IMG/VR virus record: IMGVR_UViG_3300046007_010296
Location: 1 to 23,975 of that record
DNA length: 23,975 bases
Source: a virus
Direction: 5' to 3' (one strand)
The position numbers and the translations under genes were made by a program. The notes beneath the pieces are model-generated. The model made no database searches and was not told where the DNA came from. It was given only the letters and a program-made list of their open reading frames with translations. Position 1 is the first letter of the stretch. Each line of letters begins with the position of its first letter. Shown here piece by piece: positions 9,614 to 23,975 of the stretch.

Positions 9614-10759
9614 ATGCAAAAAATTATAAATGAAATAAAACTAGATTTTGATGATGTCCTTATTAGGCCCAAACGATCAACTCTTAAAAGTAGAGCAGAA
9701 GTTTGTGTATCCAGAACATTTAATTTTAAATATTCTCCCAGAGAATTAGCATGCATACCAATAATAGTGGCCAATATGGATACTGTTGGTACCTTAGAAA
9801 TGGGTAAAGTATTATCCAAAAATCAAGCAATCACTTGCCTGCATAAGCATTATGATCCTTCTGATTATATTAGTTTATATACTGATCCTAATATAGTAAA
9901 TAAAAATTTAATATTTTATTCTGTTGGAACTGGTCATAAAGATATTGAAAAGATGACAGAGGTATTTAATCAGATCAGACAAGTAAATGGACAATTGCCA
10001 AATATTTGTGTCGATGTGGCTAATGGTTATACAGAACAATTTGTAAAAACAGTAAGTCATATTCGTAAATTATATGAAGAAGTGATTATTATGGCTGGTA
10101 ATGTGGTAACACCTGAAATGACAGAAGAATTGATTATTCATGGTAAAGTTGATATAGTCAAGGTTGGTATAGGGTCAGGCAGTGTTTGTACAACGCGTTT
10201 AAAAACTGGCGTAGGATACCCACAATTGAGCGCTGTAATGGAATGTGCTGATGCTGCTCATGGTCTTGGTGGTCATATTTGTTCTGATGGTGGCTGCAAA
10301 GTAGTTGGTGATGTTTGTAAAGCATTTGGCGCTAATGCTGATTTTGTAATGTTAGGTAGTATGTTTGCTGGATGTGATGAGTGTGAAGGAGAATGGGAAT
10401 ATGAATATAAATGCGTCATTAAACAGTCCAATCAAATTGATAAATATAAACAAATTAATTGGTGGCAACCTAATGATCCAGGAACCTCTACTGAAAAACG
10501 CAAAATTGCACTTAAATATTATGGTATGAGTAGCAAAGACGCTATGGATAAACATCATAATGGAATCGCAAAATATAGAACAGCAGAAGGAAAATCTGTT
10601 ATTGTTCCATATAAAGGTCCAGCAGAAAATACTTTATTAGATATTTATGGTGGTATTCGTAGTTCATGCACTTATATTGGTGCTAATAAAATTAAAGATT
10701 TTGGTAAAAAAACAACATTTATTCAAGTTAATAATACTCATAATAGGAAATACGAATGA
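9614..10759 (+). CDS. guaC: GMP reductase
   Basis: A 381-residue TIM-barrel enzyme of the IMPDH/GMP reductase family that converts GMP to IMP and ammonia with NADPH. LDFDDVLIRPKRSTLKSRAEV-type sequence from residue 10, the catalytic loop GIGSGSVCTTR with Cys192, TGVGYPQLSAVMECADAA, and SDGGC (224-228) all match GMP reductase better than IMP dehydrogenase. There is also no CBS domain. Human and bacterial GuaC are about 345 residues; the extra length lies mainly at about 258-300, between the ML-G-S-M-F-AG segment and YYGMSS. That is where the flap region sits in relatives. The C terminus retains GGIRSSCTYIGA and TTFIQV. It starts 2 nt after the GT69 gene and ends in ATGA overlap with a GT4. GuaC is unusual cargo for a phage. 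Confidence 0.88.
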   Translation: MQKIINEIKLDFDDVLIRPKRSTLKSRAEVCVSRTFNFKYSPRELACIPIIVANMDTVGTLEMGKVLSKNQAITCLHKHYDPSDYISLYTDPNIVNKNLIFYSVGTGHKDIEKMTEVFNQIRQVNGQLPNICVDVANGYTEQFVKTVSHIRKLYEEVIIMAGNVVTPEMTEELIIHGKVDIVKVGIGSGSVCTTRLKTGVGYPQLSAVMECADAAHGLGGHICSDGGCKVVGDVCKAFGANADFVMLGSMFAGCDECEGEWEYEYKCVIKQSNQIDKYKQINWWQPNDPGTSTEKRKIALKYYGMSSKDAMDKHHNGIAKYRTAEGKSVIVPYKGPAENTLLDIYGGIRSSCTYIGANKIKDFGKKTTFIQVNNTHNRKYE

Positions 10760-11871
10760 AAAATCTTAATCTTAATTGTCCAATAGGTGGTACTGGCTAT
10801 GGTATTACCTCATTAAATATTTTTAAATCATTAACTAATTTAGGATTAAATGTTTCTCTATTTCCTATTGGAAATAATATAGAATTAAATTATGAACAAG
10901 AGAAGATAATAGTTGAAAATGCTTTAAAGAATGCTGCATTTTTTGACCACAATGCACCATGCTTAAAGATTTGGCATCAAAATGATCTTGCTAATAGAAT
11001 TGGAAATGGGCATTTTTATGCGTTTCCATTTTTTGAAGTTGATAAATTAAATGATAGAGAAAAACATCATTTAAATTATTGTGATTATATATTTGTCGCT
11101 TCAGAATGGGGTAAAAAAGTATTATTAAATAATGATATAAATAAAAAGATTTATGTTGCACCTTTAGCAGTGGATCTTAATATTTTTAATATTCCTCCTA
11201 GAATTAAAATTAAAAATCGTAATTATGTATTTTTTCATATTGGTAAATGGGAATATAGAAAATCACACGATGTTCTAATTAAAGCATTTGATGCTGCTTT
11301 TGATCATTCTGATAATGTTGAATTAAGATTATTACCTCACAATCCATTTTTGAACGAAAATGAAGTTAAAGAATGGATGAGTTTAGTAAATAATGCTAAA
11401 TTAGCTAATAAAATTAAAGTTTTTAATAGACTGCCAACTCAATATCATTTAGCCGAATTTATTTTTCAAGGTGATTGTGGAGTATTTATCTCTAGAGCAG
11501 AAGGTTGGAATAATGAAATCTTAGAATGTATGGCTATGAATAAGCCCATAATCGCTACAGATTATTCTGCTCATACAGAATATTGTACCGAAAAGAATTC
11601 ATATTTAGTAAAAATTGATGAACTTGAGATTGCTAATGATAAACGATGGTTCTTTGGAGAAGGTTCATGGGCTAAATTAGGTCAAAATCAATTTGATCAA
11701 ACAGTAAATTATATGAGATATGTGTATAATAATCATATCTCGTCTAATCCAAATGGAGTAGAGAGTGCTAAGAAATTTACTTGGCACAATACAGGTTCAA
11801 TTATTGCAGAAACATTACTAAGGAATAATAGTTATCATGCCAATACCAAAGCCAAAACCAAACGAAGATAG
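10756..11871 (+). CDS. GT4-family glycosyltransferase (second copy)
   Basis: A 371-residue GT-B retaining transferase. The N-terminal domain starts with the glycine-rich CPIGGTGYGITSLNIF (8-23). The linker VAPLAVDLNIF (134-144) and IGKWEYRKSHDVLIKAF (162-178) mark entry into the nucleotide-sugar domain. The EX7E motif is Glu249 and Glu257 in SRAEGWNNEILECMAMNKP. TDYSAHTEYC follows, as in GT4 proteins. It is more complete than the GT4 at 5661 and not obviously a duplicate of it. The last 35 nt overlap the start of the first head-associated gene, so the basic tail HANTKAKTKRR is read in a second frame as well. Confidence 0.85.
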   Translation: MKNLNLNCPIGGTGYGITSLNIFKSLTNLGLNVSLFPIGNNIELNYEQEKIIVENALKNAAFFDHNAPCLKIWHQNDLANRIGNGHFYAFPFFEVDKLNDREKHHLNYCDYIFVASEWGKKVLLNNDINKKIYVAPLAVDLNIFNIPPRIKIKNRNYVFFHIGKWEYRKSHDVLIKAFDAAFDHSDNVELRLLPHNPFLNENEVKEWMSLVNNAKLANKIKVFNRLPTQYHLAEFIFQGDCGVFISRAEGWNNEILECMAMNKPIIATDYSAHTEYCTEKNSYLVKIDELEIANDKRWFFGEGSWAKLGQNQFDQTVNYMRYVYNNHISSNPNGVESAKKFTWHNTGSIIAETLLRNNSYHANTKAKTKRR

Positions 11872-12424
11872 TCAAAAATTCGTTGCCCGCTGTATGGGTA
11901 ACGAAACAATGAAAAAAGATTATCCAAATAACAAACAAAGAGTTGCAATTTGTTTAGGACAAACTGGTAAAAAGACAAAAGGAGGCATATTTAGTCAAGT
12001 ACTAGATATTCTAGGTCTATCTATACAGTATGATGAATGTGACGCATGTGGTTCAGTAGAAGAATTATCAGCCTCCAATTTAATAATTCCACAAGAATAC
12101 GAAGATGCTGGTGAAATATCAGAAGACTATTCTGTTGAGCATCTGTTGTGGATCGATCCACCGTTTGAACATTCTGAATCATCAGAATATCAAGGAAGGA
12201 AAGTAACACTAAACAAACCATTTAGAACACCGAGTGGCCCCAAAAAATTTGCTGTTTATGTTAAGAACGAGAGTGGAAATGTTGTTATTGTAAGATTTGG
12301 CGATCCAAACATGAAAATAAAAAAGAATATTCCAGAAAGAAGACGTAGTTTTAGGGCTAGACATAACTGCGATAATCCTGGTCCAAAATGGAAAGCACGT
12401 TACTGGTCATGCAAAGCGTGGTAA
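11837..12424 (+). CDS. Phage head-associated two-domain protein
   Basis: A 195-residue protein of two conserved phage segments joined by an acidic linker. The N-terminal MPIPKPKPNEDS...FVARCMG...YPNNKQRVAICLGQ (1-42) is a motif often found at the start of phage prohead protease or portal-associated proteins. The C-terminal part from about residue 125 (NKPFRTPSGPKKFAVYVK, FGDPNM, RRSFRARHNCDNPGPK, YWSCKAW) is a conserved domain of unknown function in phage head regions. It has two Cys and several Arg/Lys/Trp residues that could bind metal or nucleic acid. The name DUF6321 may apply, but I am not certain. No protease triad is visible. Start chosen at MPIPKP; AGGA is about 12 nt upstream, within the GT4 gene. 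Confidence 0.6.
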   Translation: MPIPKPKPNEDSQKFVARCMGNETMKKDYPNNKQRVAICLGQTGKKTKGGIFSQVLDILGLSIQYDECDACGSVEELSASNLIIPQEYEDAGEISEDYSVEHLLWIDPPFEHSESSEYQGRKVTLNKPFRTPSGPKKFAVYVKNESGNVVIVRFGDPNMKIKKNIPERRRSFRARHNCDNPGPKWKARYWSCKAW

Positions 12425-12434
12425 GGAGCAAATT

Positions 12435-12890
12435 ATGTCAAATACTAAAAGTATAGATAAGCTTTTATCAGAATATTCAAATCGTGTTGTATCTGAAGAA
12501 ATCCAGGAAGATAACACAGAATGTCCCAAAGCAACACAAGATATTAGTATAAATTTAGCTAATCGTCAAATATGTGTAGACAAAGCTAATTATGGTCCAG
12601 CTAATCCAAAATTAGATAATCTAGAATTTTGGCAACAAAAAGCTTCTTTATTTAAAACATCAATTGAAGAAGCAAAAACAATGAGATGTTCTAATTGTGC
12701 TGCTTTTATTGTAAAACATAAAATGATGAAATGTATCGAAAAAGGTATTTGCGAAGAAAATATGAATGAAGCGGCTAAAATTGTAAATTTAGCCAATCTT
12801 GGTTATTGTGAATTATTTGATTTTAAGTGTGCTGGAGATAGAACGTGTGATGCGTGGATTACTGGTGGTCCTTTAACTGATGAGGTATAA
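12435..12890 (+). CDS. Cysteine-rich phage protein with HiPIP-like Cys pattern
   Basis: A 151-residue protein with a low-complexity acidic N terminus. A conserved middle follows (YGPANPKLDNLEFW, 53-66), then a cysteine-rich C terminus. The pattern is RCSNCAAF (Cys85, Cys88), Cys100, Cys106, NLGYCELFDF (Cys125), Cys132 and TCDAW (Cys138). C-x2-C, then G-x-C-x-L-F, then C-x-x-W is the spacing logic of high-potential iron-sulfur proteins, which bind one 4Fe-4S cluster. Such proteins occur beside phage head genes, but I know of no demonstrated role. A strong SD (AAGGAG at 12423-12428, 6 nt spacing) precedes the start. Zinc binding instead of Fe-S is the main alternative. Confidence 0.6.
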   Translation: MSNTKSIDKLLSEYSNRVVSEEIQEDNTECPKATQDISINLANRQICVDKANYGPANPKLDNLEFWQQKASLFKTSIEEAKTMRCSNCAAFIVKHKMMKCIEKGICEENMNEAAKIVNLANLGYCELFDFKCAGDRTCDAWITGGPLTDEV

Positions 12891-12892
12891 CA

Positions 12893-13792
12893 ATGGATCG
12901 TATTAATGATATTCTAAATTCTGTCAATGAGAGCCTTGCTGCTCAAAAGACCTATAAAGGTAAAAAGCGTAGCGAACTCAAGGATAGCGATTTTCTATTT
13001 CCACAAACACGATCTTTTCCAATAGTAACACCACAAGATATTCCAGATGCTATTAGTAATTTTGGTCGCATGAAAGGACAAATGAGTTATGATGCTTTCT
13101 TAAAGAAGCTTTATAATATGGCAAAACGCAAAGGACCAGAGTTTATTGCAGCATTACCAAAAGCTAGCAAAGATAAACTTAATCTAAAAAGTAAATCTTA
13201 TATTGGTAATCTCGATGATGATCTTATGACCCCAAGTGAAACTAATTATTTTGAATTAGATCGAGTAAATTTAGCCAATTTGAAACCGGGTGATATGGTA
13301 AAAAATATCAACCAGCTCTGCAAACATTATGGCAGTGAAGGCTATGTGGATGATGTGAGCGAACTTCCAGATTTTATGGGACAAGTAGTTGGATATACTA
13401 CTAGTAATTCTGGTCCAACATGGAATAAAGGTGAAAAATTAGTTAAAACTCCAAATCAATTAGTGGTGATGCGTCAAGCTCAAGAAGATGATATGGATTC
13501 AGAAACAGAGATGGATGAATATAAGGATGAATATTTTGAAATGTCAATGGCATCAATTAAAGCAATCGCTGCACACGCGAACAATATACTATCAGCATTA
13601 GAAGATAATAATAAAAAAAATACTATATCAGAAAATTTGACAGAATCGTGGCTACAGGGTAAAATCGCTGTAACAGAAGAAAACATGAGAACCATTCATG
13701 ATTTTGTAATGTTTAGTGAGCCAGAAACCGATATAGAGGATAGTGAATCCAAAGTAGAACCAGTAGATATAAAAAAAAAAGACATAAGTTAA
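12893..13792 (+). CDS. Phage head-morphogenesis-type protein, possible frameshift donor
   Basis: A 299-residue protein of modular make-up. Residues 28-90 (LKDSDFLFPQTRSFPI, FGRMKGQMSYDAF, MAKRKGPEFIAALP) form a small conserved domain widespread in phage structural proteins (a DUF6582-like segment; the name is uncertain). Residues 125-195 form a beta-rich part with LKPGDMV. A very acidic linker (about 198-213) leads to a helical pair, residues 215-275: FEMSMASIKAIAAHANNIL, then WLQGKIAVTEENMRTIHDFV. The helical pair is also common in phage head proteins. No catalytic motif is visible. The last codons pass through a run of ten A residues, where a -1 shift would extend the protein by 95 residues. 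It probably acts as a scaffold or virion component; that is inference from context. Confidence 0.6.
   Translation: MDRINDILNSVNESLAAQKTYKGKKRSELKDSDFLFPQTRSFPIVTPQDIPDAISNFGRMKGQMSYDAFLKKLYNMAKRKGPEFIAALPKASKDKLNLKSKSYIGNLDDDLMTPSETNYFELDRVNLANLKPGDMVKNINQLCKHYGSEGYVDDVSELPDFMGQVVGYTTSNSGPTWNKGEKLVKTPNQLVVMRQAQEDDMDSETEMDEYKDEYFEMSMASIKAIAAHANNILSALEDNNKKNTISENLTESWLQGKIAVTEENMRTIHDFVMFSEPETDIEDSESKVEPVDIKKKDIS
13637..13665 (+). promoter_or_regulatory. Candidate internal sigma70-type promoter
   Basis: A perfect TTGACA at 13637-13642, a 17-nt spacer and TAAAAT at 13660-13665 (five of six) lie inside the coding region of the 299-residue protein. Transcription would start near 13672 and supply the genes downstream, including the sigma factor at 14382. 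It is coding sequence, so chance is possible in an AT-rich genome, but full -35 hexamers with ideal spacing are rare here. Confidence 0.4.
13771..13780 (+). other. A10 tract: possible -1 frameshift or slippage site
   Basis: Ten consecutive A residues are read as three Lys codons near the end of the 299-residue frame. The reading frame of the downstream 87-codon ORF is -1 relative to this frame, and it is open upstream back to 13747, across the tract. Slipping by one base on A_AAA_AAA would give one protein of about 391 residues. A homopolymer assembly error would look the same. Confidence 0.45.
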
Positions 13793-13803
13793 CAGTTAAG
13801 GAC

Positions 13804-14067
13804 TTGCCAACTTCCAGATTTTATTATCGTAAAGATCCTGCTCCAGATGTTCAAGATCCACAAAATAAAGATACGGAAGATGATAATGCTCCTTATTTAG
13901 ATGATTTTTCGGGTGTTTGGGCAAAAAACAAACCTGGACTATGGGATAACATAAGAAAGAAAAAGGAACGCGAAGGTAAAAATTATAGACCTGCCAAACT
14001 CGGTCAAAAGGATCGCCCCTCGCCAGAACAATGGACAAAATTAACCAAGAAAAAAGACAATACATAA
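13804..14067 (+). CDS. Phage protein, probably the C-terminal extension of the preceding gene
   Basis: An 87-codon ORF rich in charge, with SRFYYRKDPAPDVQDP near its start, WAKNKPGLWDNIRKKKERE (39-57) and the tail motif PAKLGQKDRPSPEQW (63-77). This kind of basic, proline-rich tail is found at the ends of phage head proteins. The frame has no ATG or GTG; the only start-like codon is TTG at 13804. AAGGA (13798-13802) ends one base before the TTG, too close for normal initiation. The frame is open upstream through the A10 tract, so I favour expression by -1 frameshift or transcriptional slippage from the 299-residue gene. The 3' end overlaps the next gene by 37 nt. Confidence 0.5.
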   Translation: MPTSRFYYRKDPAPDVQDPQNKDTEDDNAPYLDDFSGVWAKNKPGLWDNIRKKKEREGKNYRPAKLGQKDRPSPEQWTKLTKKKDNT

Positions 14068-14381
14068 CATTTCTATCATGGCTAGAACAAAGGCTTATCT
14101 ATAAGCATGGCTATGATAGGAATGATCGTATAATTGTGTCTATACAACAGTTAATTAATTTTTTACAACCAAAACCTTACTCGATAGATATTTGTCAATC
14201 TGATTTTGATAAAATTATATCAAAGTATTATGCCGATTTTACTCTTGATGGTTCAGATTATCTTAGTTTTGGATACACAGAATCTCAACGTAATAGACTG
14301 AGAGATGATATAAGAAATCTTATTAATGATGTACTTAATAAGAATATACCAAAGGAATTTTTAATAAAGGATAAATATTAA
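14031..14381 (+). CDS. Protein of unknown function upstream of the sigma factor
   Basis: A 116-residue protein I do not recognise. It appears mostly helical: a basic and aromatic N terminus (RQYITFLSWLEQRLIYKHGYDRNDR, in parts), then an acidic middle with YSIDICQSDFDKII, and a C-terminal amphipathic helix (RNRLRDDIRNLINDVLNK). No Cys pairs, membrane segments or signal peptide are apparent. It overlaps the preceding ORF by 37 nt and has no clear SD, so its translation may be coupled. It ends directly before the sigma factor ATG, which suggests joint expression. A partner or regulator of the sigma factor is a guess from position only. Confidence 0.6.
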   Translation: MDKINQEKRQYITFLSWLEQRLIYKHGYDRNDRIIVSIQQLINFLQPKPYSIDICQSDFDKIISKYYADFTLDGSDYLSFGYTESQRNRLRDDIRNLINDVLNKNIPKEFLIKDKY

Positions 14382-15035
14382 ATGTTATTACAATTAAATG
14401 GTATTGGTAATCAAAAAATATCTTATAAAGATCATAATGATATTAAATTTGATAGTTTACAAACATACGTTCTATTAGCTAAAAAGGCAATATCTAAATT
14501 TGCTAATCAAATTTATAACGGCTTGTCTTCTAAAATGCTTAAGGATGAGGACGCTATTGCTTCTGTTGCTAATGCTATAATGATGGCGGATTGGAGATGG
14601 GATGAAAATTATCAAAACGAAAAAGGAACTAAAAAGACCAGATATTCATATAGAAATCAATGTGCATTATGGGCTATTCAAACACATGTTTCCAAGCGAT
14701 CTAAAAAATCTAAAAAATATAATAATGTATATTCACTAGACTATATATCTGAATCAGATGACTCACTATCTGCGCACCACTATACTGAAGATAATAAGGG
14801 ATTGAGTCCTGAACAAATAGCCATTAATAATGAAGAAAATCAATCTCTTAAAAATCTTATCAATGCTATGCTACAGTCTGATTGCTTAACAGATAAACAA
14901 AAGGACTATATTAAATTATATTATTTTGAAGATTATACTTTTGATAAAATTGGTAAAAAGTATGGAATAACTAGAGAGGCTGTAAGACAGGGACTTAATA
15001 AGGCTTTAGATATTATTAGGAGCAATAATGTATAA
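14382..15035 (+). CDS. Phage RNA polymerase sigma factor (sigma70 family)
   Basis: A 217-residue protein with a reduced sigma70 architecture. A region-2-like segment at about 58-105 includes ANAIMMADWRWDENY and RYSYRNQCALWAIQTHV, the helices that would contact core polymerase and the -10 DNA. A lysine-rich linker (105-113) follows, then a C-terminal region 4 at 165-213. The helix-turn-helix runs from about 184 to 210: YTFDKIGKKYGITREAVRQG, then LNKALDIIR. T4 gp55-like late sigma factors are of similar size but lack a full region 4, so this one looks more like a small sigma70 or ECF-type factor. It probably redirects host polymerase to phage promoters. Its gene abuts the 116-residue gene and overlaps the next by 8 nt. 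Confidence 0.8.
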   Translation: MLLQLNGIGNQKISYKDHNDIKFDSLQTYVLLAKKAISKFANQIYNGLSSKMLKDEDAIASVANAIMMADWRWDENYQNEKGTKKTRYSYRNQCALWAIQTHVSKRSKKSKKYNNVYSLDYISESDDSLSAHHYTEDNKGLSPEQIAINNEENQSLKNLINAMLQSDCLTDKQKDYIKLYYFEDYTFDKIGKKYGITREAVRQGLNKALDIIRSNNV

Positions 15036-15411
15036 TCTAAATTTATATTGTATAATTATTAGTATGAATTATATGAATAATAGTTTGTATGTTTTATCAA
15101 CTGAAGAAAATACTTTAAATTTTCCAAAAATTATAGCAGATAATAGTGTTATTTTAGATCCTCAATATGCGTTTAATATTTTGCTGAAATCTTATTTGCC
15201 CGAAACAAACGAAGTAGAATTTTTCTCACAATTTATTAAATTGCACGATCCAGTTCTTGATGCTTGTGAGAATAACTACATTAATTGTGTTTATGGTTTC
15301 ATTATTAACCATACTCAAAAATTAAATAATTGCTTCTGGCATACTTTTAAATTGGGAACCGATAATAAATATCATGATTTACTACTAGAAGCTGTACAAA
15401 AATTAAAATAA
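15028..15411 (+). CDS. Protein of unknown function
   Basis: A 127-residue protein I do not recognise. The first ATG overlaps the sigma factor stop; Met13 (15064) or Met16 are alternatives, and the segment before them is hydrophobic (NLYCIIIS) but unlikely to be a real signal. The body has an aromatic and acidic character, with DPQYAFNILLKSYLPE, then LHDPVLDACENNYINC and the helix YHDLLLEAVQKLK at the C terminus. It probably folds as a small soluble alpha/beta domain. Its stop overlaps the next ATG by one base. Placement between sigma factor and protease gives no specific clue. Confidence 0.55.
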   Translation: MYNLNLYCIIISMNYMNNSLYVLSTEENTLNFPKIIADNSVILDPQYAFNILLKSYLPETNEVEFFSQFIKLHDPVLDACENNYINCVYGFIINHTQKLNNCFWHTFKLGTDNKYHDLLLEAVQKLK

Positions 15412-15809
15412 TGATTAATTCTATAATTAAGTTTTTTACAAAAACCAAAAAAGTAAAAAATGCAGAAAAAGAACCAGCTATAGAAACAGATAATATTCTA
15501 GCTTTTATTATAGATAAAAAGGGTGATATTTTTGTTAAAATTATTATTAATGATACAACTGAAATTGCTAGTTTAAGATTTGGTAATATGATTAATAATA
15601 TTAATTATGGTCAATTTGAAAATAGTATATTAGATGTGTTAGCGAAAGAATCCGATCATTCCGAAGATTATAAACAATTTAAAGATAATATTCTTGTATA
15701 TTGGAATATAGCAGATACCAGCTATAATAAAGAGGTATCTCAAGAGATTGAAGAACCATACATATCACCATTAGCATTTTCTAAAGTTCTTAATCCCAAA
15801 AATGAATAA
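15411..15809 (+). CDS. Protein of unknown function
   Basis: A 132-residue protein I do not recognise. After a basic N terminus (MINSIIKFFTKTKKVKNAEK) comes a predicted beta sheet (ILAFIIDKKGDIFVKIIIND). An amphipathic helix and acidic tail follow. The alternation of IIIDKKGDI and VKIIIND resembles a small beta-meander domain. It has one-base overlap with the upstream gene and 8-nt overlap with the downstream one, so it belongs to the same translation-coupled set. No catalytic motif is visible. Confidence 0.55.
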   Translation: MINSIIKFFTKTKKVKNAEKEPAIETDNILAFIIDKKGDIFVKIIINDTTEIASLRFGNMINNINYGQFENSILDVLAKESDHSEDYKQFKDNILVYWNIADTSYNKEVSQEIEEPYISPLAFSKVLNPKNE

Positions 15810-16248
15810 TTTTAAAACATTAATAATTTGGGAAAAATGGGTGGATCCATTTGGTCAAGACGGAGACGAAACTAAATGGACAGATTATGATAATGAAAAT
15901 GATAACATAGATAATGAAGACTATGATGATACCTTAGAAACTGAATCTCCTCAACATTTGATTAATAGATCTATTAAAGTTATTCAATCTCCTATGGGCT
16001 TGATACCATACAACGAATATACTGCTCCTAGTAAATTATTTAATTTTTGGATAGGACATACAAATTTTGATATTACTCCAACTATAATTCAAATTTTAGA
16101 AAAATGTCATGGGGTAGAAATTTTAGATATTTTTAGCAGATACCGGTTTAGAATTGCTATTGGTAAATGTTTTAATGATGCTGATATTATGACCGATATT
16201 AATGATCAACTTTACACCTTTTTAGATACACAATATGGCCAATCCTAA
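15802..16248 (+). CDS. Acidic protein of unknown function
   Basis: A 148-residue protein I do not recognise. It opens with LIIWEKWVDPFGQDGDE (7-23), then has a very acidic, disordered-looking stretch at 24-50 (DYDNENDNIDNEDYDD). A folded C-terminal part follows, with SPMGLIPYNEY, FNFWIGHTNFDIT and a VEILDIFSRYRFRIAIGK segment. The last part looks like an alpha/beta domain of about 85 residues. It overlaps the ClpP-like gene by 14 nt, which may signal a functional link to the protease, for example as a substrate or partner. That is inference. Confidence 0.55.
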   Translation: MNNFKTLIIWEKWVDPFGQDGDETKWTDYDNENDNIDNEDYDDTLETESPQHLINRSIKVIQSPMGLIPYNEYTAPSKLFNFWIGHTNFDITPTIIQILEKCHGVEILDIFSRYRFRIAIGKCFNDADIMTDINDQLYTFLDTQYGQS

Positions 16249-16906
16249 TACACTAAATGATATTCATAACTATAATGTAGATATAGAAAATAGAGAAATA
16301 TATTTACATTCCCATTTGTCAGATGCGGAGGAAGAATCTGGTGTCGATTATAAATCTGCTGTAGTATTCGAAAAAAATTTAAGATATTTAAATTTATTGT
16401 CTTTAGATCCTATTCTTGTACATATGCACTTACCTGGTGGTAGTTGGGAAGATTGTTTAGGTATGTATGATGCTGTTAAAGCATCTAAAGCTAAAGTTAT
16501 TATATTAGCTTATGCCAAAGCAGAATCATCTAGTGGTGTTTTATTACAATCTGCTGATCTAAGAATATTAATGCCAAATACAAATGTTTTAATACATTAC
16601 GGGTCATTCACACTGGATGGTGAACATAGTAAAGCGGCTGTTAGTAGTATCAAATGGAATGAGCAAGAGTGCGAAAAGATGGTTGATATATTTACTGAAA
16701 GGTGTATGAGTAGTAGTCTTGCAAAAGATAAAAATTGGAAAAGAATGATGGCTAAAAAGCATATTGTATCACAATTGGCCAATAAATGTGATTGGATCTT
16801 AACTGCTCAAGAAGCGGTTGATTATGGCTTTGCTGATGGTATTCTTGGTACAAAAAAATATCCCAACATTGATTATCTAAAAACAATCACCAAGAAGATC
16901 AAATAA
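16235..16906 (+). CDS. ClpP-fold serine protease
   Basis: A 223-residue ClpP/crotonase-fold protease. HMHLPGGSWEDCLGMYDA (63-80) matches the ClpP oxyanion loop and following helix. The nucleophile is Ser98 in KAESSSGVLLQSAD, equivalent to GQAASMG of ClpP. The general base is His121 in LIHYGSF, equivalent to MIHQP. Asp186 in KCDWILTAQEAVDYG aligns with the Asp before the F-S-A-x-E-A segment of ClpP. The triad is therefore intact. The IGT of ClpP's C-terminal end and the hydrophobic pocket for ClpX binding are not clear. It may be a phage ClpP-like protease or a head-maturation protease of this fold; its distance from the capsid genes makes the former equally possible. The start overlaps the acidic gene. 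Confidence 0.8.
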   Translation: MANPNTLNDIHNYNVDIENREIYLHSHLSDAEEESGVDYKSAVVFEKNLRYLNLLSLDPILVHMHLPGGSWEDCLGMYDAVKASKAKVIILAYAKAESSSGVLLQSADLRILMPNTNVLIHYGSFTLDGEHSKAAVSSIKWNEQECEKMVDIFTERCMSSSLAKDKNWKRMMAKKHIVSQLANKCDWILTAQEAVDYGFADGILGTKKYPNIDYLKTITKKIK

Positions 16907-16907
16907 T

Positions 16908-17582
16908 ATGTATATAGATTTTGCTTTTATTAATACGGATACTAATGAAGCAACAGTTAAAGAAGATATAAAACAAATCTTATCTCTCAATTGTGTTAAT
17001 AGTATTACTCTGCCATATTATTTAATCCGTTCAGCCAAAGCTCTCCTGTTAGATTATAAGAATGTAGATCTATCTTGTTTAATAGATTATCCACTTGGTA
17101 TTTCTGATCTAAAAACCAGAGTTTTTGCTATAGATCAGGCTATAAAAATGGGCGCAAATACTATTGATATAGTTATGCCACAAAATTTAGCTACGAATAG
17201 AAAATATGATAAAATCAGAGAAGATGTTAAAAATTGTATAGATTTATCTATTGAAAATAATGTTAAAATTAGATATATCCTAGAATATAGGATGTTTGAC
17301 CACTCGTGCTTAAAAAAACTATGTGAAATATTTGAAAATCATAACATGAGATGTGTTTTACCATCTAGTGGATATTTTCTAGATAATTTAGCGGATAATA
17401 TTCTCGCCTCGGTCTTTCTGCATCAAAATTCTAAAGATTTAAATATTATTTGTACTGGTAATATCTGGTTAGATAAACATTTTGATACTATAAAGAAATC
17501 TGGCCTATTTGGCTTGCGTACCACTTCTATACACAGTCTAGCCAACTTTGTCAAATTTAATTTGAGTCATCCTAAAGAATAA
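16908..17582 (+). CDS. DeoC-like aldolase barrel lacking the Schiff-base lysine
   Basis: A 224-residue TIM-barrel protein similar to deoxyribose-phosphate aldolase. CLIDYPLGISDLKTRVFAI (57-75), AIKMGANTIDIVMP (78-91), VKIRYILEY (119-127) and the C-terminal GLRTTSIHS (202-210) follow the order of DeoC strands (F-PLG, GA-EID-V, VKVILE, RIGTSS). The active-site segment VKTSTGF of DeoC is CVLPSSGYF here, so the Schiff-base Lys is replaced by Leu151. The second conserved Lys segment (VKAAGG) is ICTGNI. It therefore should not work as a class I aldolase. It could be a lyase of other chemistry, a binding protein or a structural relic. The start follows the protease by one base; a 57-nt gap follows. 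Confidence 0.65.
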   Translation: MYIDFAFINTDTNEATVKEDIKQILSLNCVNSITLPYYLIRSAKALLLDYKNVDLSCLIDYPLGISDLKTRVFAIDQAIKMGANTIDIVMPQNLATNRKYDKIREDVKNCIDLSIENNVKIRYILEYRMFDHSCLKKLCEIFENHNMRCVLPSSGYFLDNLADNILASVFLHQNSKDLNIICTGNIWLDKHFDTIKKSGLFGLRTTSIHSLANFVKFNLSHPKE

Positions 17583-17639
17583 TGGTGTATGAATAACTAA
17601 TCAAATAACCCATTACTTAAATTATGGAGCAATTAAAAA
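17583..17639 (+). promoter_or_regulatory. Short gap before the virion module
   Basis: This 57-nt gap begins with the second half of ATAATGGTGTAT (17579-17590), a 12-mer repeated exactly at 23162-23173. GGAG at 17626-17629 serves as ribosome-binding site for 17640. No convincing -35/-10 pair is visible, so any promoter here would have to be of phage type. Confidence 0.3.
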
Positions 17640-18224
17640 ATGGCCACTTCTTCTAATAATCCAGTAAACTATACAAAACAAGCTGACGGTTCCTCAGCAG
17701 TAACCAGCACAAGCACACGAAATAATCGTGGCGTAATTGCAACAGGCGCCACAATCAGCAATTCACTTTTTACAAAATTTCAGCCAGTCAATTTCTCGGT
17801 TAGTGGTCTAGGAATTGGCACATATCCAACAGACGGCGCGACAACAGACAAGGCTTTGAGCGCTGGCACATTTGCCTACAATAGTAGCGGTGTTATTGTT
17901 AAAGTAACAACCAGACTTGGTAACACAAATAATAGTGTTATGCAAAGCGGTAGTGTTCCCCCAGGCCAAATACAAGCTATCAATCAATTCCGTTCTGGCA
18001 CATATCGTTCTTACAGATATGCTGATTTTAATTCGTTGACTGGCACATTCTCAGTAGCGCCATCTGGTCAAACAGATGGACTTGCTTATAACAGTGGCGT
18101 AAGCACAAATTCTGGTTCTACTGATGAAGCAGCTAATCCAAGCAGATCTATTCCAGGAGAATTCGTTTACCGTCTTGGTTCTGGCGTGATCTATGGTAAC
18201 TATCCAGCAAAGAATGGTGGCTGA
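17640..18224 (+). CDS. Probable abundant virion protein of unknown family
   Basis: A 194-residue Ser/Thr/Gly/Asn-rich protein without cysteine. It has a beta-rich look (FSVSGLGIGTYPTDGATT, SGVIVKVTTRLGN, FVYRLGSGVIYGNYP) like a virion or fibre-type protein. I do not recognise the family. Codon use differs from neighbours: far more C- and G-ending codons such as GGC, ACC, AGC and GTT-rich stretches, and fewer AT-only runs. That is the usual mark of a highly expressed structural gene. A clear rho-independent terminator follows about 45 nt after its stop, fitting an abundant separate transcript. The start has GGAG about 10 nt upstream. A decoration or tail-tube-like role is possible but not shown. 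Confidence 0.55.
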   Translation: MATSSNNPVNYTKQADGSSAVTSTSTRNNRGVIATGATISNSLFTKFQPVNFSVSGLGIGTYPTDGATTDKALSAGTFAYNSSGVIVKVTTRLGNTNNSVMQSGSVPPGQIQAINQFRSGTYRSYRYADFNSLTGTFSVAPSGQTDGLAYNSGVSTNSGSTDEAANPSRSIPGEFVYRLGSGVIYGNYPAKNGG

Positions 18225-18267
18225 TTCAAGTTATATTATAATTCATATATAAAATAGTTTAATAATT

Positions 18268-18304
18268 GAGCCATCGTACCTTGGTATGTATGGCTCTTTT
18301 ATTT
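18268..18304 (+). terminator. Rho-independent terminator
   Basis: GAGCCAT (18268-18274) pairs with ATGGCTC (18290-18296), with an inner TACC/GGTA stem, followed by TTTTATTT (18297-18304). It is the only strong hairpin-plus-T-run I found in the window. It lies between the abundant virion protein and the next gene. The downstream Shine-Dalgarno AGGAGA starts right after the T-run, so the next gene depends on read-through or on an unseen promoter. Confidence 0.8.
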
Positions 18305-18319
18305 AGGAGATCATTAATA

Positions 18320-18640
18320 ATGAGTGATACTATTATTCATTTTTGGGAAAATATTGCCACAACAAGTATTGGTATTATAATTACAATGGTGGGTTTTTGG
18401 GTTACGATTGGTAAAAAAATGGTCACAAGACCAGAGGTTTTGGAAATGATTAAAAATGAGAGTCCATACAATCAGGATCGTCAATTTATTATGGAGAGAT
18501 TAGCTAGTAACAAAGAAACCCAAGCAGCTTTTGCGTCAGCACTTCAACGCAACACTGAAGTTATGACAGAATTAAAAGTGCAAATTGCTACTCTGGGTAA
18601 AACTCTAGAAGCACTAGAAGATAGAATAGAAAGAGACTAA
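18320..18640 (+). CDS. Small membrane-anchored coiled-coil protein
   Basis: A 106-residue protein with one transmembrane helix (about 12-30, IATTSIGIIITMVGFWVTI) followed by GKKM, a positive-inside boundary. A helical tail of about 70 residues ends in a heptad-like stretch (MTELKVQIATLGKTLEALEDRIERD). ATG at 18320 is chosen because AGGAGA (18305-18310) lies 9 nt upstream. A longer reading from a TTG at 18266 would run through the terminator hairpin. I do not recognise a named family. The topology, small size and place between virion genes would suit an i-spanin-like or tail-associated membrane protein, but no partner o-spanin gene is seen. Confidence 0.65.
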   Translation: MSDTIIHFWENIATTSIGIIITMVGFWVTIGKKMVTRPEVLEMIKNESPYNQDRQFIMERLASNKETQAAFASALQRNTEVMTELKVQIATLGKTLEALEDRIERD

Positions 18641-18642
18641 TT

Positions 18643-20727
18643 ATGCCTAATTGTCCTACTACTAGCTTACCGGATGGTGGAGGTAGCGTTGGTGCTAGCG
18701 ATACTGTTCTTATTAATGTTGGTGGTGCAACATCACAGGTGAGTATTACTAATTTAACCACACTAATAACAACACTGATTAATATTAATAATATTCCTAA
18801 TTTTTCTAGCGCTGTTAGCGGATTACTACCTGTAAAAAATATAATTGCAGGAACAGGTATATCAATATCATCTGTTAGTGGAGTGTTTACAGTTGTAAAT
18901 ACTATGTGTGAAACTGGTTCTATGGCTAGTCAATTTAGTAATAATGTTAATATTAGTGGTGGTAGTATTAGTGGTGTTAATTTAATTATTACTAGTGGCA
19001 CTATTACTGGCATAACAGATTTAGCGATAGCAGATGGTGGAACAGGAGCGAGCACAGCTAGTGGTGCTAGAAGTAATCTGGGTTTGGGAACCATGGCAAT
19101 TCAAAATGCTACTGGTGTCGCTATAACTGGAGGTAGTATTACTGGTGTGATAATAACTAATATCACAGACTTGGCCATTGCTGACGGTGGAACAGGTTCA
19201 AGCACGCCATCTGGAGCTAGAAGTAATCTGGGATTAGGTACACTAAGTGTTCAAAACGCCAACTCTGTTCAAATTACTGGTGGTAGTATTAGTGGTATCT
19301 CTGACCTAGCGATAGCAGACGGTGGTACAGGAGCAAGTAATGCTAGTCAGGCTAGAATAAATTTGGGACTTGGTACTATGAGTACTCAAAATGCTAGTGG
19401 AGTAGTAATTACTGGTGGAACTATTAGCAATACAACATTTACAGGTAGTATTTATGCTACGGGCATCACCATACTTGGTGGGACTATTACTGGTATAACA
19501 GACTTGGCAATAGCAGATGGTGGAACAGGAGCTAGTTCGCCTTCTGGCGCTAGAACCAATTTGGGTTTGGGAACTATATCTACTCAAAATAGTAACAATG
19601 TCAACATAACTGGAGGTACTATCTCCGGGGTATCAATTAATTTACCAAATAATACTATTTTAGCTGGATCTGGTATAACTGTTAGTCGCTCAGGCATAGC
19701 ATTTGTTATTGCAACTAAATCTAGTGGAACTACTGGATCATCAACATTATCTGGATTAAGTGATGTCTCTATTAGTTCACCAGTAAGTGGAAATATATTA
19801 GCATATAATGGAACCTCATGGGTTAATAGTGGTGTGAATGTTAATATTAGTGGATCATTATCATCACTCATAGTAGACAATCTGAAGATTGATAATAGTA
19901 GCATTAGTGGCATTTCCAGTTCTTATAATGTGAATGGTAATTCTAATGGTGCTATTGTTATAGAACCAAAAGGTAATAGTCCATTACAAGCAACATATGA
20001 TGGAGATGCTAGAGGCGATTACGCTACTGATTGGCAACGATCAAGATCTGACAGTACTAAAGTTGCTGGTTGTAACTATAGCATTATTGCTGGTGGTGAA
20101 GATAATCTAATAGATAGCGCTAGTTTTACAACACACGGGGTTATTGGTGGTGGATTGTCAAACAGCATAGCTAGTGGTACTTCTTATGGTAATTATAGCA
20201 CTATAGGTGGTGGAGAATCTAACGCTATCAATGCTCATTATAGTACTATTCCTGGAGGATATCGATCCAAAACGCGTCTATATGGCGAATTATCACATGC
20301 TGCAGGAAGTTTTGCTAATAGAGGAGATGCTCAAAAAAGCACTTTAGTATTAAGAGGAATCACAACCAACAGCACACCAGCTGAATTAACACTAGATAAT
20401 AGTGCAGAATTTGTATATTTGCCGGCCAATTCTGTTTGGACATATACGGTTCATATTAGCGCATTAAAAAACAATGGTGGAGTTTATGATGCTGGTGCTG
20501 GATTTATTATACGAGGATGTGTAAGATCTGATAATAGCTCTGTAGTATACGATGTTGGCTCGTCTATAATAGACAGTTTTAAAGATACTGCTATGAGTAG
20601 CACAGATACTGTTGTTTCTAGTAGCCATGCTAATCGTTTTAGTATTCTTGTAACTGGATTACCGTCGAATGATGTAAGATGGGTAGCTACCGTAGAATTA
20701 AGCCAAGTTAGTTATGGAACTCCATAA
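18643..20727 (+). CDS. Tail fibre protein with DGGTG repeats and YadA-like region
   Basis: A 694-residue virion fibre. The N-terminal part (1-125) is Gly/Ser/Asn-rich beta sequence. Four copies of a ~43-residue repeat follow, beginning at about residues 126, 176, 221 and 287. Each has LAIADGGTG, a short variable spacer, AR-x-NLGLGT and ending ITGG, the classic phage tail-fibre repeat. Residues 477-565 hold short repeats of the type YS-I-x-GG-x-x-N-x-I, like the YadA head, ending in HAAGSFANRGDAQ. The C-terminal ~130 residues form a beta-rich domain (EFVYLPANSVWTYTVHISAL, VRWVATVELSQVS). It probably forms trimers and binds the host surface. The start is 2 nt after the membrane protein gene, and the next gene starts 14 nt downstream with AAGGA. 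Confidence 0.85.
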   Translation: MPNCPTTSLPDGGGSVGASDTVLINVGGATSQVSITNLTTLITTLININNIPNFSSAVSGLLPVKNIIAGTGISISSVSGVFTVVNTMCETGSMASQFSNNVNISGGSISGVNLIITSGTITGITDLAIADGGTGASTASGARSNLGLGTMAIQNATGVAITGGSITGVIITNITDLAIADGGTGSSTPSGARSNLGLGTLSVQNANSVQITGGSISGISDLAIADGGTGASNASQARINLGLGTMSTQNASGVVITGGTISNTTFTGSIYATGITILGGTITGITDLAIADGGTGASSPSGARTNLGLGTISTQNSNNVNITGGTISGVSINLPNNTILAGSGITVSRSGIAFVIATKSSGTTGSSTLSGLSDVSISSPVSGNILAYNGTSWVNSGVNVNISGSLSSLIVDNLKIDNSSISGISSSYNVNGNSNGAIVIEPKGNSPLQATYDGDARGDYATDWQRSRSDSTKVAGCNYSIIAGGEDNLIDSASFTTHGVIGGGLSNSIASGTSYGNYSTIGGGESNAINAHYSTIPGGYRSKTRLYGELSHAAGSFANRGDAQKSTLVLRGITTNSTPAELTLDNSAEFVYLPANSVWTYTVHISALKNNGGVYDAGAGFIIRGCVRSDNSSVVYDVGSSIIDSFKDTAMSSTDTVVSSSHANRFSILVTGLPSNDVRWVATVELSQVSYGTP
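19018..19629 (+). repeat. Four in-frame tail-fibre repeat units
   Basis: Four in-frame units start at 19018, 19168, 19303 and 19501, each about 129 nt and encoding LAIADGGTG...NLGLGT...ITGG. They are separated by 6-70 nt of non-repeated coding sequence. The copies are diverged at third positions, so the protein repeat is conserved more than the DNA. The units offer sites for recombination that could lengthen or shorten the fibre. Confidence 0.8.
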
Positions 20728-20740
20728 GGAATAATTTATT

Positions 20741-22822
20741 ATGACTGCTAATTTTCAATATAACGATGTTTTTACCAGTGGTAATATAACTAGTAGTGGT
20801 ATTATTACTAGTATTAGTGGCGTCTTTAATAGTGTCTATAATGATATATTATCTTTTAATACTAATAATGGTGTGGTAAGTCTTCGAGGTCAGGTTGGTT
20901 GGAATAACACAGAGGGTACTTTGGATATAGCATTAGAAGACAACGTGGCAGTACAGGTGGATGAGCATCGTTTATTAAGAGTAAGAAATACAACAGGATC
21001 ACAATTATATAAGGGTCAGGTTGTTTATGCTAGTGGTGTTCATGCTAATGGTATTATTACTCCTAATTTATACGTTGCAGATGGAACGATTCAAGAAATA
21101 AGATTTATAGGTTTAATGTTAGCGGATGTTGCTATAAATAATAATGGCTTTGTTATTGATTTTGGTCATATTAATAATATTGATACTAGAGGAAATGTGC
21201 TTAATAATTATGCTGTGGGTGATGAAACTTGGGCAGATGGAGACATTCTTTATGCTCACCCAACAGTTGCTGGAAAATTGACTAAAGTAGAACCAAAACA
21301 CGCTATTAGTGTTGCATATATACTAGATGCTGCCAGCAATGGTAAAATATTTGTGCGTCCAAGTAATTTTGGAGATTTTGGTCAATTACACGATGTTAAT
21401 ATTAGTGGTGCTACTAATGGACAATTTTTACAATATAACTCATCGACAGATTATTGGATACCAAGTTCTAGTGGATCTTTAACCAATCTAACAGTATCTA
21501 GTGGTAGTCCAAGAATAAGTGGTGAAAATTTTACTGCTTATGGTAATGCTGGAATTAGTGGTTTATTAACAGTCTCTGGTCTTAATATTGGTGCTCCGGC
21601 AAATACGGGGGTTATAGCTGGTTTATCCACAACATCTACCGTACCAGCATTAAGTTTTCAAAGTGTAACAGCTAATCATACTAGTTCAAGTCATGTAATT
21701 TTTGATTTTAGAAAAAATACTTCTACTAGACTTTTATATTTTGCTGGTGATGGAGGTATAGTGGCAGATGCCACAAACGGATACTTTGTAGCATCATCAA
21801 CTAGTCCATCCGCAGGTAACGGAGCAATTGCTGCTCACGGAATGAGAAGACATAGTTCCACAAACGGTTTCGATTTTGCTTGGGGAGAAAGTATAAGTAG
21901 TGCATCAGAACCAGGAATTGATCTATTTCCAATTGGTGGCACCCACATGGTAAGTGGCATATTATTTAGACTTAGCAAAAATAGTACAAAATCCGATGTG
22001 GCTATGCTTGTTGATGGTAATGGTAAAGTTGGTATAGGCACAGCCTCTCCTCAACAATTTGTACATATTAGTGGCAATTTTGCTTGTGGTAGCGAAATAC
22101 TAAGACTGCAAAACAGTGGAGTATATTTGGGTATTGGTATAGGAGCATCTGGATGTTTTGAAAATTATGCTATATTTTATAGAAATCAAAATAGAAGTTT
22201 TGGTATAATACCAGGAACAGAAAATGTTATTTTCTTTAGTGGTATACAAATGGCCACTACAAAACAAATAAGAGGAGACAATGGTAATGCTAGTATAACT
22301 TTAGAACAGACAGCAAATGGTAATTTAGCTATAAGCGCTGTTTCTGGAATTAAATTTCAATCTAGTTTTGTAGATAAAATGACTCTTACTAGCGATGGTA
22401 AACTAGGAATTGGTACCACCACGCCTAGCGGAACTTTGCATGTTGTTGGAAATACTAATATTAGTGGAGTATTAACGGCAACTAGTGGTTCAATCACAAC
22501 TCTAAACACAGTACCAACATTCACATCACCATCTGCACTAGGTTCTAGTCAAGGAGATTGGAATCCTGGAGCTGGAGATGTGATAAGAGCTAGTGCAAGT
22601 GTTAGTGGCGTGGCAATTAGTGGTATATTTTTAGGTAATGAATACACTAGAGTATTAATTAATGTAGGGACTACAAATAACCTAACCCTTAAACATCAAG
22701 CATCAACCGCAACATCAGGATATAGAATAATTACTCCTAATGGTGGAGATTATATTGTACAACCCACAGGAGCGGCTACTATTTTATATGATATTGTTGA
22801 TAATCGATGGAGAGTTTTATAA
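20741..22822 (+). CDS. Tail fibre protein with GIGT motifs
   Basis: A 693-residue virion fibre. The N-terminal part has VSLRGQVGWNNTEGTLDIAL (46-65), then RLLRVRNTTGSQLYKGQVV, and a long conserved stretch with IRFIGLMLADVAINNNGFV, HINNIDTRGN, DILYAHPTVAGKLTKVEPKH and FVRPSNFGDFGQLHDV. These lie in the part that phage fibres often share. Two GIGT motifs (GKVGIGTASPQ near 428, GKLGIGTTTPSG near 553), the second followed by LHVVGNTNISG, are typical of long tail fibres and of S74-containing fibres, but no S74 chaperone domain is seen. The last 90 residues form a module also present in the fibre gene at 23423. AAGGA is 10 nt upstream of the ATG. It is likely a second receptor-binding or adaptor fibre. 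Confidence 0.8.
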   Translation: MTANFQYNDVFTSGNITSSGIITSISGVFNSVYNDILSFNTNNGVVSLRGQVGWNNTEGTLDIALEDNVAVQVDEHRLLRVRNTTGSQLYKGQVVYASGVHANGIITPNLYVADGTIQEIRFIGLMLADVAINNNGFVIDFGHINNIDTRGNVLNNYAVGDETWADGDILYAHPTVAGKLTKVEPKHAISVAYILDAASNGKIFVRPSNFGDFGQLHDVNISGATNGQFLQYNSSTDYWIPSSSGSLTNLTVSSGSPRISGENFTAYGNAGISGLLTVSGLNIGAPANTGVIAGLSTTSTVPALSFQSVTANHTSSSHVIFDFRKNTSTRLLYFAGDGGIVADATNGYFVASSTSPSAGNGAIAAHGMRRHSSTNGFDFAWGESISSASEPGIDLFPIGGTHMVSGILFRLSKNSTKSDVAMLVDGNGKVGIGTASPQQFVHISGNFACGSEILRLQNSGVYLGIGIGASGCFENYAIFYRNQNRSFGIIPGTENVIFFSGIQMATTKQIRGDNGNASITLEQTANGNLAISAVSGIKFQSSFVDKMTLTSDGKLGIGTTTPSGTLHVVGNTNISGVLTATSGSITTLNTVPTFTSPSALGSSQGDWNPGAGDVIRASASVSGVAISGIFLGNEYTRVLINVGTTNNLTLKHQASTATSGYRIITPNGGDYIVQPTGAATILYDIVDNRWRVL
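22550..22770 (+). repeat. C-terminal fibre module, copy A
   Basis: Codes for residues 604 to about 677 of the fibre protein. It shares the order DWNPGAGDV, SASVSGVAISG, RVLINVGTTNNLTLKH and ITPNGGDYIV with the fibre gene at 23423 (residues 113 on). Roughly two-thirds of the DNA positions look the same by eye, so this is a duplicated coding module, not a recent perfect repeat. Confidence 0.7.
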
Positions 22823-22838
22823 ATAGGAGAATCATAAA

Positions 22839-23162
22839 ATGAGTATTTTAGACACAAATGAATATAAGCCATCAGCCGAATCAATTTCAGCAGGATTAAG
22901 GGTGGAAATTTCAAGTTTATTTAATGCTATGGTTTCTACTTACAATAATGGCACACTATCTTTTTGGAAAAATCCATACTATAATCCTTCTGAGATGGCA
23001 CTGGCTCTGGGAAAGGATGCTAAAGAAATATTTGAATTACATTATAAACTTGGTCAATTAATAACTTCTATAAAACCAGAAGCTATAGCTGAGACTAATA
23101 ATTATATTGGTCATTTCACCATTAATCAGGATGGTTCTGTTACTGTCTTATCAAACTCTTGA
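22839..23162 (+). CDS. Small phage protein of unknown function
   Basis: A 107-residue protein I do not recognise. It is helical in the middle (SAESISAGLRVEISSLFNAMV, then LALGKDAKEIFELHYKLGQLI), and ends in a short beta segment (YIGHFTINQDGSVTVL). No signal peptide is seen. AGGAGA at 22825-22830 with 8-nt spacing to the ATG gives a good ribosome-binding site. Its place between two fibre genes suggests an assembly factor or minor virion component; that is inference. Confidence 0.6.
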   Translation: MSILDTNEYKPSAESISAGLRVEISSLFNAMVSTYNNGTLSFWKNPYYNPSEMALALGKDAKEIFELHYKLGQLITSIKPEAIAETNNYIGHFTINQDGSVTVLSNS

Positions 23163-23201
23163 TAATGGTGTATTTTAATATTATACCCCGGAGAAAAGAA
23201 T
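23162..23201 (+). promoter_or_regulatory. Short gap with a repeated 12-mer
   Basis: ATAATGGTGTAT at 23162-23173 matches 17579-17590 exactly. GGTGTA (23167-23172) can pair with TATACC (23182-23187, one G-T pair) around a nine-base loop, without a T-run. Both gaps sit before virion genes. A promoter or processing site is possible but not supported by known consensus. Confidence 0.3.
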
Positions 23202-23423
23202 ATGGCCATTGATATATCAACAATAGTAACGGCTAACCCTATTAAAAATGGAACAATTGTAGTGCAAGCTTGTGGTGGGCACTATGGTAGTGGAGTTATT
23301 AAACTAGACACTTATGTGCTAAATACTCCCACAAGTGGTGATATTGGATCAAAATATACTAACAGATTTAATGATCCAGCTTATTACTATGGTGTTACCT
23401 CTGTTAATGGTGGAGGCGCATAA
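23202..23423 (+). CDS. Small phage protein of unknown function
   Basis: A 73-residue protein with a beta-rich look (TIVVQACGGHYGSGVIKLDTYVL) and a C-terminal Gly-rich end (GVTSVNGGGA). One Cys is present and no membrane segment. GGAG lies about 8 nt upstream of the ATG. Its TAA overlaps the ATG of the next fibre gene by one base. I do not recognise the family; a minor virion part is likely from position. Confidence 0.55.
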   Translation: MAIDISTIVTANPIKNGTIVVQACGGHYGSGVIKLDTYVLNTPTSGDIGSKYTNRFNDPAYYYGVTSVNGGGA

Positions 23424-23975
23424 TGGCCAATCAAGGTTATGTAACCATAAAATTAAGACGAGACTTAGCAGCTACTTGGACAAGTGTAAATTCTGTGCTT
23501 GCTAGTGGCGAGCCAGGATTTGAATTAGATACTGGCAAATTAAAAATTGGTGATGGTACCACAGCATGGAGCGGATTGAGTTATTTATCAGGAAGTAGCG
23601 GTAGTGGTGTCACATTAGAACAAGTTGAAGATGATCTTGGAACTGGCTTTTTAGTTGCTGGTACGGGTATTACTTTGTCTTATAATGATGCTGGCAACAC
23701 TTTAACTGTTGGTAATAGTGGCGTTAGCGTATTATCTCCAACCACCATATCAACTAGTCAAAATAATTATGATCCTGGATCTGGTGATGTTTTAAGACTT
23801 AGCGCTAGTGCTAGTGGAGTTAATATTACAGGATTAGTTCCAAGATTAGAAAAAATCCGATTATTAATTAATATTGGAACCACAAATAATCTTACTCTTG
23901 TTCACGAATCAGCCAGTTCAAGTTCTGGTAATAGATTTATTACTCCAAATGGTGGTAACTATATTGTGGCGCTTC
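23423..23975 (+). CDS. Tail fibre protein, 5' part (cut by window edge)
   Basis: The open frame starts at the ATG that overlaps the previous stop (TAATG) and runs off the window after 184 codons. Residues 1-55 (VTIKLRRDLAATWTSVNSVL, LASGEPGFELDTGKLKIGDG, TTAWSGLSYL) match the N-terminal domain common to many phage fibres, including the major-tropism-determinant-like N terminus. EQVEDDLGTGFLVAGTGITL follows, and from residue 113 a module shared with the fibre at 20741 (NNYDPGSGDV, RLLINIGTTNNLTLVHE, ITPNGGNYIV). It is probably a third fibre or a tropism protein; the C terminus is outside the window. Confidence 0.7.
   Translation, partial: MANQGYVTIKLRRDLAATWTSVNSVLASGEPGFELDTGKLKIGDGTTAWSGLSYLSGSSGSGVTLEQVEDDLGTGFLVAGTGITLSYNDAGNTLTVGNSGVSVLSPTTISTSQNNYDPGSGDVLRLSASASGVNITGLVPRLEKIRLLINIGTTNNLTLVHESASSSSGNRFITPNGGNYIVAL
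23759..23975 (+). repeat. C-terminal fibre module, copy B
   Basis: Second copy of the module at 22550-22770, in frame within the truncated fibre. Both copies keep PG-x-GDV-x-R-x-SAS-x-SGV, LIN-x-GTTNNLTL and ITPNGG-x-YIV. In this gene the module follows a different N-terminal domain. Confidence 0.7.

Follow-up and report, generated by a model that had tools for sequence, protein, structure and literature searches.

A conserved poly-A run at a domain junction of a modular phage gene is a candidate site of transcriptional slippage

The DNA analysed here, referred to as the window, is a 23,975-base IMG/VR virus fragment in which two consecutive open reading frames on the + strand, together spanning 12893-14067, meet at a run of ten As. 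The question raised by this locus is whether these are two genes or one and, if one, how a break in frame at the A run is to be understood. As assembled, the 5′ part (12893..13792, +) has 299 codons and ends in ...VDIKKKDIS*; the 0-frame at its end reads GAT ATA AAA AAA AAA GAC ATA AGT TAA, in which the A10 tract (13771..13780, +, coding for I-KKK) is a candidate slippery site and the TAA stop (13790..13792, +), three codons past the tract, ends the short product. Within the window this is the sole run of nine or more As. An open -1 frame extends from 13747 to 14067, including upstream across the ten As in the last codons of the 5′ part, and contains neither ATG nor GTG; its sole TTG (13804..13806, +) is separated by one base from an SD-like AAGGA (13798-13802). 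These properties of the 87-codon downstream ORF had been pointed out in the initial annotation and are confirmed in the sequence, as is the computed result that one extra A, or a -1 shift, joins both parts into a product of 391 aa with a basic, K/R-rich end. The 3′ part read in this way (-1 frame, 13781..14067, +) consists of a linker (RHKLTVKDLPTSRFYYRKDP...) and a basic C-terminal module, D4 (GLWDNIRKK...RPAK...RP). The 5′ part comprises the domains D1 (residues ~11-98), D2 (~125-197) and a helical D3 (~199-290), followed by the lysine tract; the domain limits were taken from tblastn pieces and from an AlphaFold model of the relative L003.

Relatives were gathered from IMG/VR with either part of the gene, a distant homologue or an alignment as query, and also by DNA patterns; a loose DNA pattern scan returned mostly unrelated loci, and the junction pattern found in L436 was set aside as a chance match. 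D3, which precedes the tract, and D4, which follows it, served as markers for the continuity of the gene. Both lie within one ORF in 86 of 90 distinct D3-D4 pairs, the exceptions being window/L002, L005, L009 and L402, the last of which has a different arrangement with D4 0.8 kb away in another ORF. A continuous homologue of 431 residues is encoded by L003 and L004 (identity 74% and 73% over its length), in which the position of the window's TTG is TTA. A separate gene starting from TTG 13804 was rejected on account of the SD one base away, the TTA in these two relatives and the continuous ORF; from the TTA and the continuous ORFs it follows that the 87-codon ORF is the 3′ end of the gene. The initial annotation had asked whether homologues are one continuous gene and had suggested that both parts form one protein; this is borne out by the relatives, none of which was found to start the 87-residue part of this protein from an ATG of its own. 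Judged by these alignments, 12893-14067 is a single gene and the fused protein is its normal form.

A misassembled tract length, the other explanation offered for the interrupted frame, is unlikely. L002, a 12.4 kb contig from another dataset, covers window positions 11290-23700 with 99.984% identity, no indel and the same A10, which independently argues against a one-off misassembly, and tract length is reproducible within types (3/3 contigs of the L014 type, 4/4 of the L346 type and 2/2 of the window type). In the comparison of alignable window genes with relatives, the tract was the only frameshift which was neither compensated nearby nor situated at a gene end, at a gene overlap or within the opening codons of an ORF. 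By their substitution ratios, the codons downstream of the tract are under purifying selection, dN/dS after the tract being ~0.10 for the window and L005, both of which are out of frame, and 0.13 for the window and L006. Over window positions 13181-14400, L005 and L006 are near-identical to the window up to ~13950 and then 10-20% different, a pattern suggestive of a recombination breakpoint within the part of the gene that encodes the end of D4. As the near-identity around the tract extends up to ~13950, the frame difference between the window and L005 may be young and the divergence older.

What the protein does is a separate matter. Searches for function by homology in Pfam, PHROGs and the PDB, and by tblastn against 50,697 phage records, returned nothing usable; the best hits reached E values of 0.025-0.03 only, and homology to a known head or packaging family was not found. 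The description of the product as a head protein is thus unsupported, as no Pfam, PHROG or PDB match assigns the family a function; a structural role is possible, given a head-maturation-protease-like gene 2.4 kb downstream, and the head protein label is unproven. That gene (window 16235-16906) encodes a ClpP-like protein which matches phage head maturation protease families (phrog_94, E 8e-19). The gene pair is followed immediately by the gene of a Sigma-70 region 4 protein (14382-15035; Pfam Sigma70_r4, E 3e-12). Elsewhere in the window, a long IMPDH/GMP-reductase-like gene (9614-10759; phrog_9582, ‘dehydrogenase’, E 8e-107) stands in a stretch rich in glycosyltransferase-like genes, and a tail-fibre-like gene (18643-20727) contains many internal repeats of the type ITDLAIADGGTGAS.

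No cultured relative of this modular protein family was found. An AlphaFold model of the 431-aa relative L003, of low overall confidence (mean pLDDT 59, pTM 0.25), is confident for the D1 and D2 blocks; in it D3 is helical, D4 has a short helix, and the linker (residues 314-388), which starts at the lysine tract, is disordered. In L005 (346-999) and L006 (4168-5094), D1 is cleanly absent relative to window 12893-13180, the join falling at approximately residues 18 and 97 in the numbering of the window protein; domains have been gained and lost many times in the family, and this is one instance. Modules are also common to neighbouring genes, since D3 and D4-like modules occur in the L379, L398 and L401 homologues of window gene 11837-12424; homologues of that gene have the N-terminus MPIPxPKxxE and the C-terminus RRKSFRARHNCDNPGPKWKARYWSCKAW.

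An A9-A10 run is present at the junction in four lineages, namely the window clade, L009, L014/L346 and L067, whose proteins are ~50-60% identical, and the frame in which it is assembled varies. The window and L002 (A10) are shifted by -1, as is L009 (A10; 49% identical, on a 93-kb contig), L005 (A10) is shifted by +1, and L006 (A9), L003/L004 (A10), L014/L017/L018 (A9), L346/L433/L434/L435 (A9) and L067 (A10) are in frame. Slip products were computed for ten contigs: the window and L009 both lack precisely one A to reach the in-frame length, whilst the repair of L005 would take the loss of one A or the gain of two, which are rarer slips. A slip joins two frames, and either the unslipped or the slipped reading ends soon after the run; these early stops in the other frames were discarded as evidence of design, as a stop within 3 codons has a chance of 0.28-0.36 per frame, which makes the argument too weak. 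L070/L109 and L015/L016 keep the lysine run, interrupted by AAG, and the majority of other relatives pass from D3 directly to D4, without linker and tract. On a tree of D3 and D4, with modest support values, sequences with the tract occupy four separate positions among tract-less relatives, and therefore the linker was gained, lost or exchanged more than once. In three unrelated phage contigs (L168, L190 and L243) an A9-A10 run of similar look stands at the very end of a 312-320-codon ORF, immediately before the next ATG.

Whether such a run is exceptional depends on codon usage. Lysine is encoded by AAA ~80% of the time, and A9 within KKK would thus be ordinary in the absence of any opposing force. 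Elsewhere in the family loci only 1/161 unique lysine runs contains A9, where ~88 would be expected, compared with 7/10 lysine runs at the junction (Fisher p 1e-9, and 5e-5 once collapsed to lineages). As a control, synonymous codons were shuffled within genes, and 1,056 non-junction genes were set against nine junction genes. The former contain 19 runs of A9 or more (~112 expected), none of A10 or more (~40 expected) and AAAAAAAAA in lysine phase once (~70 expected); off-phase A9 runs do occur in them (18 observed, ~45 expected). The nine junction genes have no such deficit (9 observed, ~11 expected); they match the plain shuffle expectation, and if A runs were not avoided at all, KKK written as A9 would be unremarkable. 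Every distinct A10 run in the family loci (5/5) is at the junction. By these counts the junction is exempt from a strong genome-wide purge of long A runs, and the exemption may represent either selection for slipping or tolerance of slipping, which the data fit alike.

We consider slippage of the RNA polymerase on the A run, whether programmed or tolerated, to be the best explanation of this locus, with a probability of roughly 0.6. Bacterial RNA polymerase slips on long A runs with a frequency that climbs steeply with run length, and the commonest transcriptional slip at A/T runs is a single insertion (PMC5574713). On the A9-A10 run, the polymerase would thus produce mRNAs of differing tract length, mostly through single-A additions. 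In the window, the unslipped A10 mRNA would yield the 299-aa short form, which stops three codons past the lysines, and an mRNA with one extra A would yield the 391-aa long form carrying D4. In relatives which are in frame the roles would be swapped, with the long form made from unslipped and the short form from slipped mRNA. A slip would thereby add or remove the linker and the basic D4 module, so that proteins carrying D4 and proteins lacking it would be made side by side, and a variable DNA frame is what would be expected if either frame yields both products. We infer that the run does slip, that it does so during transcription, that the phage makes and uses both products and that their mixture is the useful outcome.

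The locus has those defining features of a transcriptional realignment site which can be judged from sequence. The A run within the coding region is of the length of 8-9 or more (A10 in the window, A9-A10 in relatives), diverged homologues retain it to a greater extent than codon use and the general avoidance of A runs account for, and purifying selection acts downstream of it in the out-of-frame members, bearing in mind that these may have lost the frame only recently. What is read from the DNA itself is thus that the locus is a single gene, that the tract is conserved and exempt from the purge, that the frame varies and that selection acts downstream. As a counterpoint, three or four of the lineages with the tract have an intact gene by assembly, which may simply be translated in frame, and slippage is dispensable for the family as a whole, because some tracts are interrupted by AAG (L070/L109, L015) and most relatives are without linker and tract. 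More tentatively, and at slightly less than even odds, the junction may serve this dsDNA phage family as a frame-agnostic site, in which a long A run is kept against the purge and the host RNA polymerase yields proteins with and without D4 from whichever frame the DNA holds.

The initial annotation had left the kind of programmed slip undecided between the ribosome and the polymerase, and the relatives favour the latter. Programmed -1 ribosomal frameshifting would act on the heptamer A_AAA_AAA, which is indeed in the 0-frame of both the window and L009, and in both a -1 shift gives the long product. However, a conserved stimulator, either an SD or a stem-loop, was sought around the tract in the relatives and not found: downstream structure is not conserved (z +0.26, -0.43, -0.54, -1.54), and an upstream SD-like GAGGG occurs in L009 only. 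Nor is the direction of shift the same among homologues (-1 in the window and L009, +1 in L005 and none in the others), L005 could not be repaired by a -1 shift, and in every lineage the run exceeds the length which the heptamer needs. Transcriptional slippage fits better than a -1 ribosomal slip because the homopolymer is conserved, the frame varies (-1, +1, 0) and a conserved stimulator is absent, and we regard the ribosomal mechanism as quite improbable.

Slippage by the polymerase must also be weighed against changes in the DNA itself. The gene could be an ordinary one in which a replication or sequencing error has changed the A count, leaving a truncated or miscalled copy and nothing programmed. 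Homopolymers of this length are indel hot spots, a clade is in frame in several contigs, which makes the intact gene the common state, and the frame changes within the window clade look recent. This account is nevertheless unlikely, as random miscalls would hardly give the same A10 in two contigs, nor an unvarying A9 in all three contigs of the L014 type and all four of the L346 type, and it leaves unexplained both the persistence of the run in four lineages, while A10 or longer is purged from 1,056 genes, and the shift of the distant L009 at the same place. Heritable phase variation, in which slipped-strand mispairing during replication would toggle D4 between individual phages and so create a mixed population, is less likely still. 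Poly-A phase variation is known in bacteria (PMC3711429), and close haplotypes do differ in both length and frame (L006 is A9 and in frame, L005 A10 and out of frame), but all contigs of a given type share one tract length, and contigs are consensus sequences in which mixtures within a population would be invisible.

If transcriptional slippage does take place here, this would be, as far as our literature search showed, an early example of such a slippage site being conserved in a gene of a tailed phage, recoding in tailed phages being known chiefly as ribosomal frameshifting. A conserved and otherwise purged A run, found at a domain junction in both frames, would also allow transcriptional slippage in phages to be tested cleanly on a natural example. 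Gene callers will split such proteins in two, and apparent frameshifts at A9-A10 in metagenomic phages should not be dismissed outright as errors.

Comparable situations have been described in several systems. In Buchnera and Blochmannia, poly-A frameshifts are rescued by polymerase infidelity, and there, as here, the frame differs and the downstream codons stay constrained; however, long A runs are common genome-wide in those bacteria, whereas here they are purged except at the junction. Among tailed phages, the G/GT tail assembly chaperones of lambda and Ig-like C-terminal extensions likewise have an optional C-terminal module, and in phage ribosomal frameshift systems the shift goes one way in some phages and the other way in others, with certain relatives simply in frame; these differ in that the ribosome shifts at phase-fixed slippery sites (PMC5009743), and no homology to the window protein was found. 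The dnaX gene of Thermus thermophilus and other poly-A dnaX genes are alike in having a conserved A9-A10 at the junction of two domains, with short and long products, although gene, organism and function are different and the dnaX products, which arise by programmed transcriptional realignment, have been characterised (PMC3711429). The type of arrangement proposed here is mirrored by tssM1 of Citrobacter rodentium, in which an A11 run gives the long form through slippage at ~20-25%, and tssM3 of Yersinia pseudotuberculosis, in which slippage gives the short form (PMC4256274). In each, an early stop comes after a poly-A run, and both lengths are made because slippage brings the reading back into frame in tssM1 and throws it out of frame in tssM3, just as the out-of-frame and in-frame members of the phage family would behave. 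For the tssM genes, RNA heterogeneity and both proteins have been measured, whereas the phage gene is known from sequence; the phage family, in turn, differs in having both states at one junction within a single gene family.
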